The notes under the pieces: generated by a model
Database searches by the model: none
What the model saw: the letters and a program-made list of their open reading frames with translations, nothing else
Told to the model about the DNA's origin: nothing
In this document: positions 5,569 through 45,070 of the stretch, one piece after another
How the letters are laid out: each line of letters starts with the position of its first letter
Numbering within the stretch: the first letter of the stretch is position 1
Position numbers and translations under genes: made by a program
From: Thermofilaceae archaeon
Lineage (GTDB): Archaea > Thermoproteota > Thermoprotei > Thermofilales > Thermofilaceae
DNA length: 64,000 bases
Assembly (NCBI GenBank): GCA_038731975.1
Contig: JAVYQJ010000003.1
Coordinates: 1 to 64,000 of the forward strand
Direction of reading: 5' to 3'

Positions 5569-6213
5569 CTATATTATTGCTACCTCGCAAACGCCCTCGA
5601 GAAGCCTCTTAAATGATTCAGCATCCCTCCTGTCACCCACTATAGCCCCGTAGTGCATCGGAATTGCCAGTGCTGGCTGTATCCTGCGTACGGCTTCTAC
5701 AGCCTCGCTAGCAGTCATCACGTACACGCCGCTCACTGGAACGAGAGCGACATCCACGTGTCCTCTGAGGCTCTCCATCTCGGGTATGAGGTCGGTATCG
5801 CCGGCGTGGTATATCCTCACACCACCCAGCTCTACGATCACGCCGATGCCGCCGTACTCGCGCGGGTGGTATGGTTTGCCGACGTTGTACGCAGGTACTG
5901 CACGCACCTTAACCCTCTTCACCTCAACCTCGTCCCCTGGTTTCAGAAGCTTCAGCTCCCGTACTAGTCCCCTCAACTTTCGCTCGCAGTTAGAGGCCGC
6001 TACGATGACGGCATCCCTCTTGAGGGCCTTCCTCAAGTCTTCGGGGCTGCAGTGGTCGTAGTGATCATGGGTGCAAATGCCCACGTCCCCGTCGCCGGGA
6101 GAAGAGGGCAGGGAGAAAGGGTCTATGTAGACGACCGAGCCGCCCCCTTCCAGCCTGAATCCCGCGTGTGGGAGGTGCTGAATCTTAACCCCCCTGAAGT
6201 GTAGCTCGCCCAC
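5569..6213 (-). CDS. Metallo-beta-lactamase superfamily hydrolase (UPF0173-like)
   Basis: 214 residues. Key metal ligands are visible: HxHxDH (THDHYDH, near residue 50), a downstream HAGDTD Asp, and a late PMHYG His. The compact size and the motif order match the UPF0173/YtkL-like branch rather than RNase Z or glyoxalase II. It binds two metal ions and hydrolyses an unknown substrate. GTG start at 6213. The ATATAT at 6237-6242 lies about 25 bp upstream and probably also serves the divergent glycerate kinase gene. Followed by the small RHH gene. Confidence 0.82.
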   Translation of the reverse strand: MGELHFRGVKIQHLPHAGFRLEGGGSVVYIDPFSLPSSPGDGDVGICTHDHYDHCSPEDLRKALKRDAVIVAASNCERKLRGLVRELKLLKPGDEVEVKRVKVRAVPAYNVGKPYHPREYGGIGVIVELGGVRIYHAGDTDLIPEMESLRGHVDVALVPVSGVYVMTASEAVEAVRRIQPALAIPMHYGAIVGDRRDAESFKRLLEGVCEVAII

Positions 6214-30162: not shown

Positions 30163-30291
30163 GGCGCCGTAGCCAGCACCGCGCTTTCCCGGGGCCGCAG
30201 ACCCCAGTACTCGCGGCGGCGGGCGACTGCTTAGCTTCCGGGATCTGACGAGACCGGGCGTTTCCAGTCGCCCTATGGCCGGCTCGGCGCC
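30163..30291 (-). rRNA. 5S ribosomal RNA
   Basis: On the minus strand GGCGCC opens the gene (30291) and pairs with a terminal GGCGCC at 30168-30163. The conserved core GGTCTCGTCAGATCCCGGAA and the following AGCTAAGC box are present. Length is about 129 nt. A TATA box (TTTAAATA, 30313-30320 reverse strand) lies 25 bp upstream. The gene is not linked to 16S/23S, as is usual in Crenarchaeota. Exact ends are approximate. Confidence 0.93.
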
Positions 30292-30460: not shown

Positions 30461-30565
30461 TGGCGCCGGGGCCGGGATTCGAACCCGGGACCTCCCGGTT
30501 TCTATCCATTCCTTAACATAATTCGGCTAACAGCCGGGCGCTCCACCGGGCTGAGCTACCCCGGC
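30461..30565 (-). tRNA. tRNA-Asn(GTT) with intron at 37/38
   Basis: On the minus strand GCCGGGG pairs with CCCCGGC, with discriminator G and an encoded CCA (30463-30461). The D arm GCTC...GAGC and the T arm CCGGG-TTCGAAT-CCCGG are regular. The anticodon stem CCCGG/CCGGG holds CTGTTA+A with anticodon GTT. An intron of about 28 nt follows position 37, the canonical site. Confidence 0.93.
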
Positions 30566-30652: not shown

Positions 30653-31231
30653 CTAGTTGGAAACGTGTCTATGGAAAGAAGCGTGACTACGCGATGTGCC
30701 TGCATCACGTGCAAGTGCGATCTTGAGCGCGTCCAGCTCGTGGCTTGATAGCTTACCCAGTTGTGTAAAGTCACCAAGTATTACGCTTTCCTTTACCTGT
30801 TCGTTTCCTAAAAGCTCGACCTGAGCACCTACTGCTTCGAGTTTCTTATAAAGTTCTTTGGCCAAAGCAGCGAGATGGCTAGAATACCCTATACGAACGT
30901 GTACTTCTGCTCCGAGGCCTACAAGGGCTGATATCACGTGAACAAGCCTCTTGGGATTTCGTGCAACGCTCGAGAAAGCCAGTACTCCTCCAATCACGAC
31001 GGCAAGCCCCAGGTGCCTGGAGCCCAAATCGACTCCGAGGGCTACTCTTTTTGTCGCTGTGAGGGTCATCGCAAGCCAGCAAGCGAAAACTGCCGGGTCC
31101 CCTGAACTTAGGACGGCGTCCGGTACTTCGATTCCAGTCGTGCTTACCTCAACTAATGATTCAAGTCCCAACTCGCGCAACCATGAGTACACTTTTTGGA
31201 CGGCTCGAGGGTCTTTAACGGTAATCTCCAA
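30653..31231 (-). CDS. RuvC/YqgF-like RNase H-fold protein
   Basis: 192 residues. After a 60-residue N-terminal part comes the RNase H-fold strand VALGVDLGSRHLGLAVV with Asp68. A final helix HELDALKIALA carries Glu165 and Asp167, the pattern of YqgF and RuvC nucleases. The middle acid expected in RuvC is not obvious (VHVRIGYSSH is more YqgF-like). I start at a TTG (31231) with GGAGG just before it, 12 nt after the previous stop; a TTG at 31267 would add 12 residues and overlap the upstream gene. It is the last gene of a three-gene cassette. The target is unknown. Confidence 0.65.
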   Translation of the reverse strand: MEITVKDPRAVQKVYSWLRELGLESLVEVSTTGIEVPDAVLSSGDPAVFACWLAMTLTATKRVALGVDLGSRHLGLAVVIGGVLAFSSVARNPKRLVHVISALVGLGAEVHVRIGYSSHLAALAKELYKKLEAVGAQVELLGNEQVKESVILGDFTQLGKLSSHELDALKIALARDAGTSRSHASFHRHVSN

Positions 31232-31242
31232 GCTCCTCCGCG

Positions 31243-31857
31243 TTAGTTCTGACGTAAGGCTTCGCAAGCTTCCTCTACCTCTCTAACGCTTATCTCAAAC
31301 CGTCCTAGGGCTATGAGCGGGTCGGCTAGGTCGCGCTCTTCAAGGGTTAAAACTTCATTCTCGACTATAGTTCGCACAAGCCTAGGCTTAAGCCTCCGCA
31401 GTATTTTGATGGTTAAGGGTCCGCCCGTTCTGTAATCCTCAGCACATACGAGTAAGACCTTGCATCCCGCCTCCACAGCCAAGCTGAGAACGCTTACCTC
31501 CGTTAACGCCATCCGATACACGTAACTTTCACTCAACGAAGCCCTGTACGGCACTAGGTTGGCCATGAACTCGTCTATTGCCACCAGCTTTACTTTCTTC
31601 TGCTTGCAGAACCCTATGCACTCTATTGCGGTTAACAGTTCATCGTAAAACGATGTTGCAGCTCGAACCTCAACATCGCGAAGGGTCACCTTTAAACGAG
31701 CATGTCGGCCGGCACCTATGTAAACGGATGGTGCTAACTGCTCGCCTAGGAGGAGGGTTAACCGAGTTCTAAACGTACCAGGTCCACCGTAAAGAACCAA
31801 AACCCCCCTATCCAACCTTTTTGTTAGAAATGTTAAAAGCCTATCTAATGCAGGCAT
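31243..31857 (-). CDS. RecA-like P-loop protein with degenerate Walker A
   Basis: 204 residues. The layout resembles RadB or other small RecA paralogues: an early loop GGPGTFRTRL where Walker A would be, and a Walker B-like VKLVAIDEF (Asp95). In the loop the invariant Gly-Lys is replaced by Phe29-Arg30, so ATP binding or hydrolysis should be weak or lost. The C-terminal third (GGPLTIKILRRLKPRLV) is basic. The start is ATG 31857, four bases after the preceding membrane protein stop; an upstream in-frame start at 31902 lies inside that gene. It probably works with the RNase H-fold protein encoded next. Confidence 0.65.
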   Translation of the reverse strand: MPALDRLLTFLTKRLDRGVLVLYGGPGTFRTRLTLLLGEQLAPSVYIGAGRHARLKVTLRDVEVRAATSFYDELLTAIECIGFCKQKKVKLVAIDEFMANLVPYRASLSESYVYRMALTEVSVLSLAVEAGCKVLLVCAEDYRTGGPLTIKILRRLKPRLVRTIVENEVLTLEERDLADPLIALGRFEISVREVEEACEALRQN

Positions 31858-31861
31858 CCGC

Positions 31862-32227
31862 TTAACGTTTCGCGTAGTACATAACAGCGATGAGCAGCGC
31901 ACCGATGATTATCAAAGTAAGGCTGATCGCGATTCCTCGAGTAAAGTCCCTCCTGATACGCCGGTACAGATCGTAAAGATTGTAAAAGCCGTAAATCATC
32001 ATTGCGTAACCCATGAAGCTTAGGATGAATTCAGTTGTGTTCTGCAAACTCGTACCTGGCACGGGTCCAATTCTCGAGTGGACGGCTGCGCACTGATCTA
32101 AATCGTGAAGGCATGTATAGAGAACGTTGAAAATGCCGGATACGAGAAGGAGCGCTGACATTACGGCGAGCGGCGCGAGCGTAGCTGGCTCCAGCAACTT
32201 CTTCAGGGGGTTTAACGGTCGGACCAC
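31862..32227 (-). CDS. Small three-helix membrane protein
   Basis: 121 residues; family not recognised. TM segments lie near 17-38 (LAPLAVMSALLLVSGIFNVLY), 66-87 (FILSFMGYAMMIYGFYNLY) and 98-118 (GIAISLTLIIIGALLIAVMYY). Two Cys flank the loop CLHDLDQC (residues 39-46). A basic patch RRIRRDF precedes TM3. GTG start with TATA atttataca (32246-32254, minus strand) 25 bp upstream. It is the first gene of the cassette with the RecA-like and RNase H-fold genes, spaced by 4 bp and 11 bp. Confidence 0.7.
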   Translation of the reverse strand: MVRPLNPLKKLLEPATLAPLAVMSALLLVSGIFNVLYTCLHDLDQCAAVHSRIGPVPGTSLQNTTEFILSFMGYAMMIYGFYNLYDLYRRIRRDFTRGIAISLTLIIIGALLIAVMYYAKR

Positions 32228-32271
32228 GGAAAACCGCGCTACCGGGCATGTATAAATGTTGCTACGTAGCC

Positions 32272-33123
32272 TCAGGCCGTCGTTGCGAATGCTAGTATCC
32301 CGGTGAGCATGGCTAGAAGTGTCAACTTTCTGCTGCGTGCGGCTACAGCACTCTTTTGAAGGAGCAGCGAGAAAGAAACGTAGGTGAAGAGTGCATCGGT
32401 CAAAGCCACTGTGGAGGCATAAAGGAGGAGTTTCTCCTCTGGGAGGAGGGGGATTGCTAGCAGGCTAGCCGCGACGGCTGCTAGCATCAGGAGGCTGGCC
32501 ACTCTTGCTGCGAATGCTGGGCCTTTGACTACAGCCAATGTCTTAACCCCGACTCTGCGATCGCCCTCCATGTCTAGTATGCCCTTCAGAATTTCCCTAC
32601 CTAGAGTAGCAAGAAAGGCAACTGAGGTGAGGAGGATGGCTAACCGGGGTATTTTGAAGCCGCTAGGGATGGAAGCTCCGAAGAGGAACGGTAAAGCAGT
32701 GTCAAAGGCCACGATGATGTTTCCTGGCAATCCAGCTCTTTTTAGTTTCGCGTTGTAAGCCATCCCTGAAGCCACGGCTACTATTACAAGTAGAGCGGGC
32801 ATAACCCCTAAGCTTAACGAAAGAGCGGTTCCCAGTACCAGTGATGCTAAGCCGATAATCCAGGCTTCTTTAACGCCGATGTCGCCTCGAACCAGCGGCC
32901 TCCACGGCGCGTTGATTCTATCTTCCTCGAGGTTATAAATATCGTTAAAGACGAAAAGCCCTATTTCAACGGACAGGGTTGTTGCGACTGCTATGCAAGC
33001 TGGAAGAAGCTGCATGTTTGACCAACCCTGCGCACCAAGAGCGTATCCCACGAGCGTTGCGATCGCCGCCATTACTCCGTGATCGATTCGCGCTAATCTC
33101 AGCATAGCGCCTAGCTTGCCCAT
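32272..33123 (-). CDS. UbiA-family digeranylgeranylglyceryl phosphate synthase
   Basis: 283 residues, about eight TM segments. The first prenyl-diphosphate motif is NDIYNLEEDRINAPWRP, and the second is GILDMEGDRRVG. It attaches the second geranylgeranyl chain to GGGP in the membrane, after the two soluble enzymes encoded at 8976-10040 and 28219-28992. I start at ATG 33123 (MGKLGAMLRLARIDHG) because a TATA-like cattatttaag lies about 27 bp upstream; a longer in-frame start at 33219 would add 32 basic residues across that promoter. Alternative UbiA substrates such as menaquinone are less likely. Confidence 0.85.
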   Translation of the reverse strand: MGKLGAMLRLARIDHGVMAAIATLVGYALGAQGWSNMQLLPACIAVATTLSVEIGLFVFNDIYNLEEDRINAPWRPLVRGDIGVKEAWIIGLASLVLGTALSLSLGVMPALLVIVAVASGMAYNAKLKRAGLPGNIIVAFDTALPFLFGASIPSGFKIPRLAILLTSVAFLATLGREILKGILDMEGDRRVGVKTLAVVKGPAFAARVASLLMLAAVAASLLAIPLLPEEKLLLYASTVALTDALFTYVSFSLLLQKSAVAARSRKLTLLAMLTGILAFATTA

Positions 33124-33242
33124 GAGCACTCGAGCCGTTCTGCTCTTAAATAATGATTTCTTGACTCGCTTTGCTTTGGGCTTGAAGGAGAAAGAGGTAA
33201 AGTAGGCTAAATTTAGCACAAAGACCGCAATACAGTATATGA

Positions 33243-33407: not shown

Positions 33408-34085
33408 ATGCGGTTAACTGTGGAAGAGCGCTTTCACGCCCTCGCCTTACTGCTCCTGCGTAAACAGCGTCTAAAGTTGGATGAGCTTCAGGCAGAGCTA
33501 AAAGTTACAGAGGAGACACTGCGCATTTTTCTGGCGGGACTTCCGGTTCTGCTGAGTGGGGGCGAAGTAGTGGTGGTAGACACCGTCGACTTACTCCTAG
33601 AACTTTGGAAGAGGAGGTTTGATCCAGTTGAGTTAGCATTAAGAACAGGATGGAAAGAATTTGAAAAGCTATGTTCTAGAATTCTAGAACAATGCGGTTT
33701 CGAAACATTTTTGAATGTACGGTTAAAGGTTCTTAGAAAAGTACGCGAACTAGACGTTGTAGCACTGCGCGAACCATGGGTGCTGGCTGTGGATTGTAAA
33801 CGTTGGGCTCGCCGGCGTGAAAGCCATTTAAGATTAGCAGCTCGCGCGCACAAGGCTCGCTGCGAGCTGCTCGCACGCGAGCTGCCTGGAGTAGTTGAGG
33901 TAGCAGCTAGGGTGGCAAAATGGAGGGAGGCTAGAGTGGTTCCAGTCATAGTAGATGTTCATGAAACCGTCATGAAGATGTTTGAGGGGGTTCCCATAGT
34001 CCCGCTACGTAAACTCCCTGCCTTCCTGGACGAATTCGAAGCGTTCGCAGACGAGCTGTACGTGGTGAAAGTTGCTCTAAAGTAG
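33408..34085 (+). CDS. PD-(D/E)XK nuclease-like protein with N-terminal helix-turn-helix
   Basis: 225 residues. The first 60 residues look like a winged helix (HALALLLLRKQRLKLDELQAEL). From about residue 80, WKEFEKLCSRILEQCGFE, then RELDVVALREPWVLAVDCKRW shows the nuclease fold: Asp in ELDVV, then the D-C-K doublet with the acidic position changed to Asp, and Lys. This is like archaeal Mrr-type or COG1787 proteins. It may be a restriction or repair nuclease. No methyltransferase is adjacent. ATG 33408, convergent with rpl14; it lies 70 bp from tRNA-Ile, but no integration scar is seen. Confidence 0.7.
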   Translation: MRLTVEERFHALALLLLRKQRLKLDELQAELKVTEETLRIFLAGLPVLLSGGEVVVVDTVDLLLELWKRRFDPVELALRTGWKEFEKLCSRILEQCGFETFLNVRLKVLRKVRELDVVALREPWVLAVDCKRWARRRESHLRLAARAHKARCELLARELPGVVEVAARVAKWREARVVPVIVDVHETVMKMFEGVPIVPLRKLPAFLDEFEAFADELYVVKVALK

Positions 34086-42898: not shown

Positions 42899-45070
42899 AT
42901 GAGGAACGAGGGCTGGAAGTCGCTACTGGCTAAACTTGCGCGAGGGCTTACTGCGTGCATAAGCTTCTTTGCGAAACCGAGCTTCATTGCCGCATTAGTT
43001 GTTACCCTCAGCGTCGTTATAGCTCTTCTTCTGAGATTGGCTCCCCTCAGATGGGGGGTGTACCTAAACGAGTTCGACCCCTTCTACGAGTACTACCTGG
43101 CTGAGAAACTGCTTGAGAAGGGTAATGGCAGCCTACTAAGAGGGCTTGCGTGGTGGTTCAGCTGGTGGTTTGATAGGGGGGAGAGAGACACGTTGTTCTG
43201 GGCGCCCTTTGGGAGGGATTTAAGGGCAAGTAGTCAACTCGGAGCACCTCTCTTTTCAGCTTCAGTTTATAAGCTTCTGAAGGATCTTGGATTTGAAGTG
43301 GATTTGTACACGGTGCACGCCTTTATTCCGGCTGTGTGGGCTGCGACAGCTAGCATCTTCGCCTACCTTCTGGCCAAGGAGGTCTGGGATTCGAGCGCGG
43401 GGGTTCTCGCAGCAGTATTCATGGCTTGTAGCTGGCCTTTCATCTTCAGGACGAACTTAGGAGCGAAGCACGAGGGTGTAGCTATACCGTTCATGCTGCT
43501 AACGCTCTACCTGTTGATCAGCGGGGCAAGGAGAGGGTCGGTGCTGAGGGGCCTCCTCGCCGGTTTAGCGATGGGCATAGTCATCCTAGCTTGGGGTGGC
43601 TTCCTATACGCTTGGAACCTCGTCTCCCTCACTGTACTAGTCTGGCTGCTCTTCAACCCGGAAGACGTCAACGTAGCGAAGGCCTTCCTACCCCTCATTG
43701 TAATCGCCGATATCTTAATAGCGGTTATGCCGCGCTTCGGGCCAATCTATGCTTTCGCCTCGTATGCTGCGTTGCTGCCGTGGTCGGCTAAACTGTTATC
43801 CGTGCTCGTTATGCTGCACCGCGTTCCTAGGATGGGTTTGCGCTTGGATAGGAAGACTGCCTCGATCGTTGCGGGTGGTCTGGCGGTTGTAGCTCTGATC
43901 CTGTGGTACATGGGGCTCCTGACGGCGCTCCCGGGCAGAATCATGGCCATTCTGCTTCCCGTGCTTCGCGAGGTCGGAGTAACTACGGTAGCTGAGCATG
44001 CGGTACCCACGTGGGCCTCCATCTACGGTAGCTACGGTATGCTCCTCCCTCTTTCGGGTTTCGGAGCCCTACTATGCGGCTACAAGTATAGGAGGAGGAT
44101 CGAAGATACTCTCATGCTGCTGTTCTGGGTCAGCGCAGCCTACGCTGCCGCATCTATGGCCAGGCTTACCTTAATTATGGCGCCGGCCGTAGCGTTGCTA
44201 GCCGGGTATGCAATAAGCGAGCTCATGGAGGGGGCCATGCGATTGTGGCGGCAGAAGTCGAGTGCCAAAAGGGGGCTTCAACCGGGCTTTGAGCTGGCTC
44301 TCCTCCCCCTCGCGATAGTGCTTTTACTGCCTCTCCCCACCGTAGCCGACACGAACTCCATAGCAGCGACGCACCAACCCGCTTTGATACTTTCCTCCTC
44401 GATCCCAGTATTGGACTACAACTACCAGTACTTAGATTGGCTCTCAGCTCTCGAATGGATCAAAGCTAATGTGCCGAAGAACGCTGTCATAGCCACGTGG
44501 TGGGACTACGGCTACTGGATCTCCGTGAACACGGGAAGGAACACCACCTGCGATAATGCTACGATAGACACGAAGCAGATACAAAGGATCGCCACCGCCT
44601 TCCTTTCGAGCGAGGAGGAAGCGTTGAAGATTTTTAGGGAGTTGAATGTAACCTATGTAGTCGTATTCGAGCCTTTCCTCAGGGCTCAACTACAGTACTT
44701 AGGCAACGTTTACTTCTCACCGGCGTACGGAGGCGTTGGAGGAGATCTGGCAAAAAGCTACCAAATGGCTCGCTGGATCGGTGCAGACCCCAATCGGTAC
44801 GTTGGCATAGGGTATGTAGACAATTACCCTGTGCTCGTGCCCGCAGACACTCCGGAAGCGCGCAACGCTACCTTGTACCGCCTCCTCTTCGTCAAAACGT
44901 TGGAGAGGCGACTCTTCATATTCGAGAAGCTGCCGTTCTATGGAACACCAATATCCAACTATCGGGGTCCCAGCCCGGATATACCCCCGCCCACTCACTT
45001 CAAACTAGTCTACGCCTCTAGGCCTAACGAGTGGGTTTTGGTCTTCAAAGTCGAATACCCAAGTGATTAA
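42899..45070 (+). CDS. aglB: Dolichyl-phosphooligosaccharide-protein glycotransferase (AglB/STT3)
   Basis: 723 residues. The N-terminal half has about 11-13 TM segments with the first external loop DPFYEYYLAEKLLEKG, carrying the acidic metal-binding motif. The soluble C-terminal domain starts with the WWDYG signature (W534-G538), required for recognising the sequon acceptor. It transfers the lipid-linked glycan to Asn in N-x-S/T. ATG 42899, with aatttttaag (42867-42876) as TATA box. The protein encoded at 13216-14775, rich in sequons, would be one client candidate. Overlaps the convergent nop10 by 4 bp. Confidence 0.95.
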   Translation: MRNEGWKSLLAKLARGLTACISFFAKPSFIAALVVTLSVVIALLLRLAPLRWGVYLNEFDPFYEYYLAEKLLEKGNGSLLRGLAWWFSWWFDRGERDTLFWAPFGRDLRASSQLGAPLFSASVYKLLKDLGFEVDLYTVHAFIPAVWAATASIFAYLLAKEVWDSSAGVLAAVFMACSWPFIFRTNLGAKHEGVAIPFMLLTLYLLISGARRGSVLRGLLAGLAMGIVILAWGGFLYAWNLVSLTVLVWLLFNPEDVNVAKAFLPLIVIADILIAVMPRFGPIYAFASYAALLPWSAKLLSVLVMLHRVPRMGLRLDRKTASIVAGGLAVVALILWYMGLLTALPGRIMAILLPVLREVGVTTVAEHAVPTWASIYGSYGMLLPLSGFGALLCGYKYRRRIEDTLMLLFWVSAAYAAASMARLTLIMAPAVALLAGYAISELMEGAMRLWRQKSSAKRGLQPGFELALLPLAIVLLLPLPTVADTNSIAATHQPALILSSSIPVLDYNYQYLDWLSALEWIKANVPKNAVIATWWDYGYWISVNTGRNTTCDNATIDTKQIQRIATAFLSSEEEALKIFRELNVTYVVVFEPFLRAQLQYLGNVYFSPAYGGVGGDLAKSYQMARWIGADPNRYVGIGYVDNYPVLVPADTPEARNATLYRLLFVKTLERRLFIFEKLPFYGTPISNYRGPSPDIPPPTHFKLVYASRPNEWVLVFKVEYPSD

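Follow-up and report, generated by a model that had tools for sequence, protein, structure and literature searches.

A three-gene locus of a Thermofilaceae archaeon as a probable compact form of an old gene cluster of Thermoproteota

We analyzed a window of 64,000 nucleotides from the 1.85 Mb genome of a Thermofilaceae archaeon, in which three genes without prior annotation are closely packed on the minus strand. Gene 1 (31862-32227; 121 aa) starts with a GTG codon at 32227 and has its stop at 31862. Gene 2 (31243-31857; 204 aa) starts with ATG at 31857, 4 bp past gene 1, and ends at 31243. Gene 3 (30653-31231; 192 aa) starts with TTG at 31231, 11 bp past gene 2, and ends at 30653. The open reading frames are located as an earlier note on this DNA had claimed, on a single strand and with these two short gaps. 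Reading the sequence, we find a TTTATA box (32252-32257, minus strand) 25 nt 5′ of the start codon of gene 1, consistent with a candidate leaderless promoter. A UbiA-family prenyltransferase gene, absent from the earlier note, follows upstream on the same strand (32272-33219; PF01040, 1.6e-37); its 3′ end lies 44 bp upstream of gene 1, and it is kept beside gene 1 in relatives as part of the conserved neighbourhood. The gene of the catalytic oligosaccharyltransferase AglB/STT3 is assigned on the plus strand at 42899-45070 by PF02516 (5.2e-21) and synteny. Two RNA genes on the minus strand (30168-30286 and 30464-30565) follow the trio closely downstream: one encodes 5S rRNA and the other a long tRNA that probably contains an intron and was missed by ARAGORN. 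Elsewhere in the window, 33408-34085 encodes a protein that weakly matches the Mrr-type restriction endonuclease domain (PF04471, 1.5e-4) and is kept beside ribosomal protein genes in relatives.

The order of the three genes is kept in the same genus and family, where the wider arrangement reads UbiA, gene 1, gene 2, gene 3, AglB, aIF2-alpha and L44e. AglB lies directly downstream of gene 3 in these relatives and is displaced in the window, its start being about 12 kb off at 42899. Compared with a related locus (L036 of genome G003), the window segment 30653-42700, which runs from gene 3 across the genes of ribosomal proteins, seems to be inverted with respect to AglB and aIF2-alpha, with one breakpoint near the tRNA and 5S genes. 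We ascribe the distance of AglB to this inversion. In another relative (L043 of genome G011), the trio is flipped between UbiA and AglB and is still together.

Gene 1 is, as predicted from its relatives, a three-helix non-catalytic oligosaccharyltransferase (OST) subunit of the OST3/OST6-OSTC (DC2) family, made up of the transmembrane part alone. The PF04756 (OST3_OST6) profile gave no match to the window's own gene 1 sequence alone, and its sole match in a direct search of the window genome is at another place; we therefore assigned the identity of gene 1 via its relatives. A profile of 17 family members (A1) finds human OSTC (6ftg; E 1.3e-5) and MagT1 (0.024), and PF04756 is matched by 13 of the 17 family homologues (best 7.3e-12). 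Using phylum-wide homologues (profile A6), the scores reach 1.1e-12 for OSTC and 2.8e-8 for MagT1; here PF04756 is matched by 11 of 17 homologues, one of which is shown above the gathering score (33.1 versus 27 bits). The two profiles represent the same family (hhalign, 4.6e-29), and 153 of 300 Thermoproteota genomes contain OST3-like homologues of gene 1. The likeness to OSTC/DC2, OST3/OST6 (MagT1/TUSC3) and PF04756 is a near-full-length profile match with conserved G, Q-x-x-x-E and G positions. It extends to the AglB/STT3 neighbourhood, as relatives have AglB close to gene 1 or gene 3.

OSTC (DC2) is a three-helix relative of OST3/6 that does without the thioredoxin domain. Unlike OST3/OST6, gene 1 has no N-terminal thioredoxin domain, and 121 aa leave no room for one, so it is predicted to be OSTC-like and not OST3/6 proper. 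It further differs from the OST3/OST6-OSTC proteins in its strong divergence within the window's genus and in carrying two 3-residue insertions. Three transmembrane helices had been proposed earlier: by a simple hydropathy window, the first and last are strong in the window copy, while the middle one is derived from the homologues. The CLHDLDQC loop pointed out at the same time does exist in gene 1. Both of its cysteines are present in only 2 of 17 homologues, so the loop is no family motif, and we ruled out a cysteine-based redox role for it. Among published accounts, one found no archaeal OST3/6 (PMC4973528), one named OST3/6 for Asgard only (PMC10307638), and one mentions it for TACK and Asgard in a single sentence (PMC11417166).

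Gene 2 is predicted to encode a strongly derived RadB-type protein of the RecA family. Its RecA fold is confident (AlphaFold pLDDT 94.4), and the model is closest to RAD51 paralogues and RadA (Foldseek, E about 1e-8); these matches and the profile evidence uphold the earlier description of the protein as RecA-like. The reading of Phe29-Arg30 at the Walker A position was also correct. The motif is YGGPGTFRT, with the G and K replaced; the Walker B Asp95 is retained, and no acid follows the strand after Walker A. The Walker A Gly is missing in all 14 family members and the Lys too in 5 of them, as against an intact GKT in 12 of the 13 aligned counterparts from the phylum. The motif can be arranged as a series, from GKT (phylum) through FKT, LKT or CKT (SFKT; most of the family) to FRT or LRT (the window's genus and genome G006). 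This degeneration suggests that ATP hydrolysis has been lost in the window's protein.

Gene 2 sits on a long branch and is connected to RadB by profile and position, without a direct significant match; a contig scan with the gene 2 sequence alone found nothing. By hhalign, gene 2 aligns with the Thermoproteota RadB set at 98.3% and 2.4e-14. The counterparts outside the window's order, which hold the same position beside gene 1 or gene 3 homologues, match the RadB model TIGR02237 in 13 of 13 cases (best 1.9e-48), the sole score shown for this set (146.4 bits) being under the curated cut-off of 172.4. The same set matches RadB (2cvf) over the full length at 2.2e-53, versus 4.7e-32 for RadA. In a quick RecA-family tree with a distant root, where the RadB-like rows are not one clade, the window's group forms one clade (support 100) that falls within the RadB-like set defined by synteny (support 86) and is separated from RadA and the RadA paralogues. 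Gene 2 and its counterparts resemble RadB, the euryarchaeal RadA paralogue, in having a single RecA core without an N-terminal domain, and no family matches the phylum set better than TIGR02237. They differ from euryarchaeal RadB in their Thermoproteota hosts, in their neighbourhood and, in the window's order, in the degenerate Walker A. RadB has been stated to be restricted to Euryarchaeota (PMC5480776), and Ral paralogues have been described from Sulfolobus (PMC7407445). The tree also places RadB-sized RecA-family proteins from another family (f17, loci L235-L237) on the RadA side (support 98), outside the syntenic RadB-like set. In addition, genome G028 contains five RadA-like copies that are similar and lie at separate places (C1:7777, C2:237190, C3:323, C5:175424 and C7:10009; E about 1e-28 to 1e-29), which suggests a mobile or amplified recombinase.

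Gene 3 is a predicted nuclease-like protein of RNase H fold with a YqgF/Tex-type active-site arrangement. The fold is modelled with a pLDDT of 88.7 (AlphaFold), and Foldseek retrieves an IS110-family RuvC-like protein (1.3e-4), Tth RuvC (2.1e-4) and Mtb RuvX (3.9e-4), the TM-scores against RuvC and RuvX being only about 0.4. Thus the RNase H fold of the earlier note holds, on Foldseek and profile evidence, and RuvX and RuvC are fold matches. Its proposed carboxylates hold in part: Asp68 and Asp167 are conserved, but Glu165 is not conserved outside the genus. We find instead Glu144, missed previously, to be better conserved. The sites are D68 on strand 1, E144 following strand 5 and D167 within the C-terminal helix; strand 4 has G115 and lacks an acid. 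Relocation of the acid from strand 4 to strand 5 is a hallmark of YqgF and Tex (PMC3985635), and the same three positions are the likeness of gene 3 to YqgF/RuvX, Tex and DUF460 (COG2433). In contrast to these proteins, gene 3 has its own N-terminal segment and no gathering-level Pfam match, and is genomically paired with RadB and Clp1. The gathering score of PF03652 was not reached, the best value being 0.0032, in two members. Gene 3 aligns with its phylum family (A5) at 99.0% and 2.7e-18 by hhalign, and at E ≤ 0.001 relatives turn up in 218 of 300 Thermoproteota genomes, although the weakest matches may be due to chance. A congener (G001) has Ala at the position of Asp167, which argues against catalysis there.

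Across Thermoproteota, the usual order is an OST3-like gene (+), CarS (CDP-archaeol synthase) (-), a RadB-like gene (-), a gene 3-like gene (+) and a Clp1-type kinase (+), often with XPD or RadA near the cluster. Gene 1-like and gene 3-like genes lie at most 3.2 kb apart in 47 of the 84 genomes where both were listed; from the size of the genomes, we estimate the chance expectation for such proximity at well under one per cent. This count is less biased than the adjacency counts (gap ≤ 300 bp) from 29 loci with gene 3, half of which were chosen for containing gene 1. In these loci RadB adjoins gene 3 in 18 cases, always divergently (head-to-head), and Clp1 adjoins it in 17. Five loci (L164-L167 and L169) retain CarS, RadB and gene 3, mostly with Clp1, and gene 1 was not found beside RadB and gene 3 there. 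The earlier note had asked for co-occurrence in other genomes, and we see that the order recurs in the family and, in rearranged form, across the phylum, so that the grouping exceeds chance. The co-directional trio of the window lacks CarS and is a rearranged remnant. Euryarchaeal RadB loci have no CarS, OST3 or gene 3 neighbours, and so the cluster is not traceable to an archaeal ancestor. In Thermococcus and relatives (L180-L191), the upstream neighbour of RadB is a protein of ~211 aa related to the window ORF 5569-6213 (about 32% identity).

Taken together, we consider it likely that the trio is a compact, Thermofilales-type version of this old Thermoproteota cluster and not a dedicated three-part device, with gene 1 belonging to oligosaccharyltransferase, gene 2 being a derived RadB and gene 3 being of YqgF/Tex type. 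Given its homology and neighbourhood, the gene 1 product probably lies against AglB in the way that, in eukaryotes, OSTC/DC2 and the OST3/OST6 membrane part lie against STT3. Because the gene 2 protein has no canonical ATP-binding loop, its RecA fold, lineage and eroded motif would most likely make it a scaffold that does not hydrolyse nucleotides or binds them weakly, such as a mediator contacting RadA or junction DNA. For gene 3, the fold, motif and pairing are observed, and its product most likely acts on branched DNA together with RadB or, alternatively, on RNA ends together with Clp1, the polynucleotide kinase encoded nearby. Genes 2 and 3 would then most likely be an uncharacterised nucleic-acid pair, with which gene 1 shares the neighbourhood only.

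The mixed functions of the cluster (OST3, CarS, AglB and UbiA versus RadB, Clp1 and XPD) raise the question of whether there is any functional link at all. The three could be unrelated housekeeping genes, for glycosylation, recombination and a nuclease-like activity, kept side by side because the chromosomal region is stable and they are transcribed jointly. We regard this as rather doubtful, since the pair of RadB and gene 3 persists between families despite changed flanking genes and changed relative orientation; genes 2 and 3 stay a unit through the rearrangements.

Genes 2 and 3 might otherwise be RNA-processing factors, gene 3 trimming pre-rRNA or other RNAs like bacterial YqgF, with the 5′ polynucleotide kinase Clp1 as the true partner and the RadB-like protein in a regulatory role. 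The Clp1 neighbours counted above would fit this explanation, as would the presence of Clp1 near gene 3 in family f17, whose gene 3 has no RadB next to it, and the YqgF/Tex-type arrangement of the carboxylates. RadB is nevertheless the immediate divergent neighbour in its 18 loci, XPD and RadA cluster there too, and in Thermofilales AglB takes the place of Clp1 after gene 3, while gene 2 still adjoins gene 3. We judge the RNA-processing explanation unlikely. For genes 2 and 3 we lean towards recombination, since no partner is closer than RadB and the loss of Clp1 does not break up the pair.

It is highly improbable that all three proteins form a membrane-anchored device for recombination, repair, uptake or defence, as the earlier note had proposed from the tight co-directional packing that does hold in the window's family. 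By profile, gene 1 is an OST subunit and would have a different, housekeeping role in the membrane. In most of the phylum, CarS separates gene 1 from RadB, and gene 3 and RadB point away from each other. No gene 1 was found beside the pair in the five loci named above, and no defence model matched above noise. The earlier note had itself named assignment to unrelated housekeeping families as evidence against its proposal, and for gene 1 the profile searches point to just such a family. What remains plausible of the joint role is recombination or nucleic-acid pairing for genes 2 and 3 only. Among the PADLOC defence models, the sole match was DpdK at 0.035 for gene 3, and single-sequence Pfam, NCBIfam, PHROGs and PADLOC scans of the trio returned nothing usable. 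We dismissed weak matches to DUF308, MIP, TusA, DpdK and DUF973 as compositional or isolated.

Under the preferred reading, that of a compact version of the Thermoproteota cluster, the identity of gene 1 suggests that archaea outside Asgard have an oligosaccharyltransferase of several subunits and bears on the origin of the eukaryotic OST. The RadB-like set challenges the published absence of RadB from Crenarchaeota. We advance only tentatively the possibility that a Thermoproteota RadB lineage, head-to-head with an undescribed YqgF-type RNase H protein, forms a new recombination-mediator or nucleic-acid-processing complex, with an ATP-independent RadB in Thermofilales. The analysis brings to light a phylum-wide pairing of RadB, YqgF-like and Clp1 genes, with a candidate role in recombination or RNA processing.
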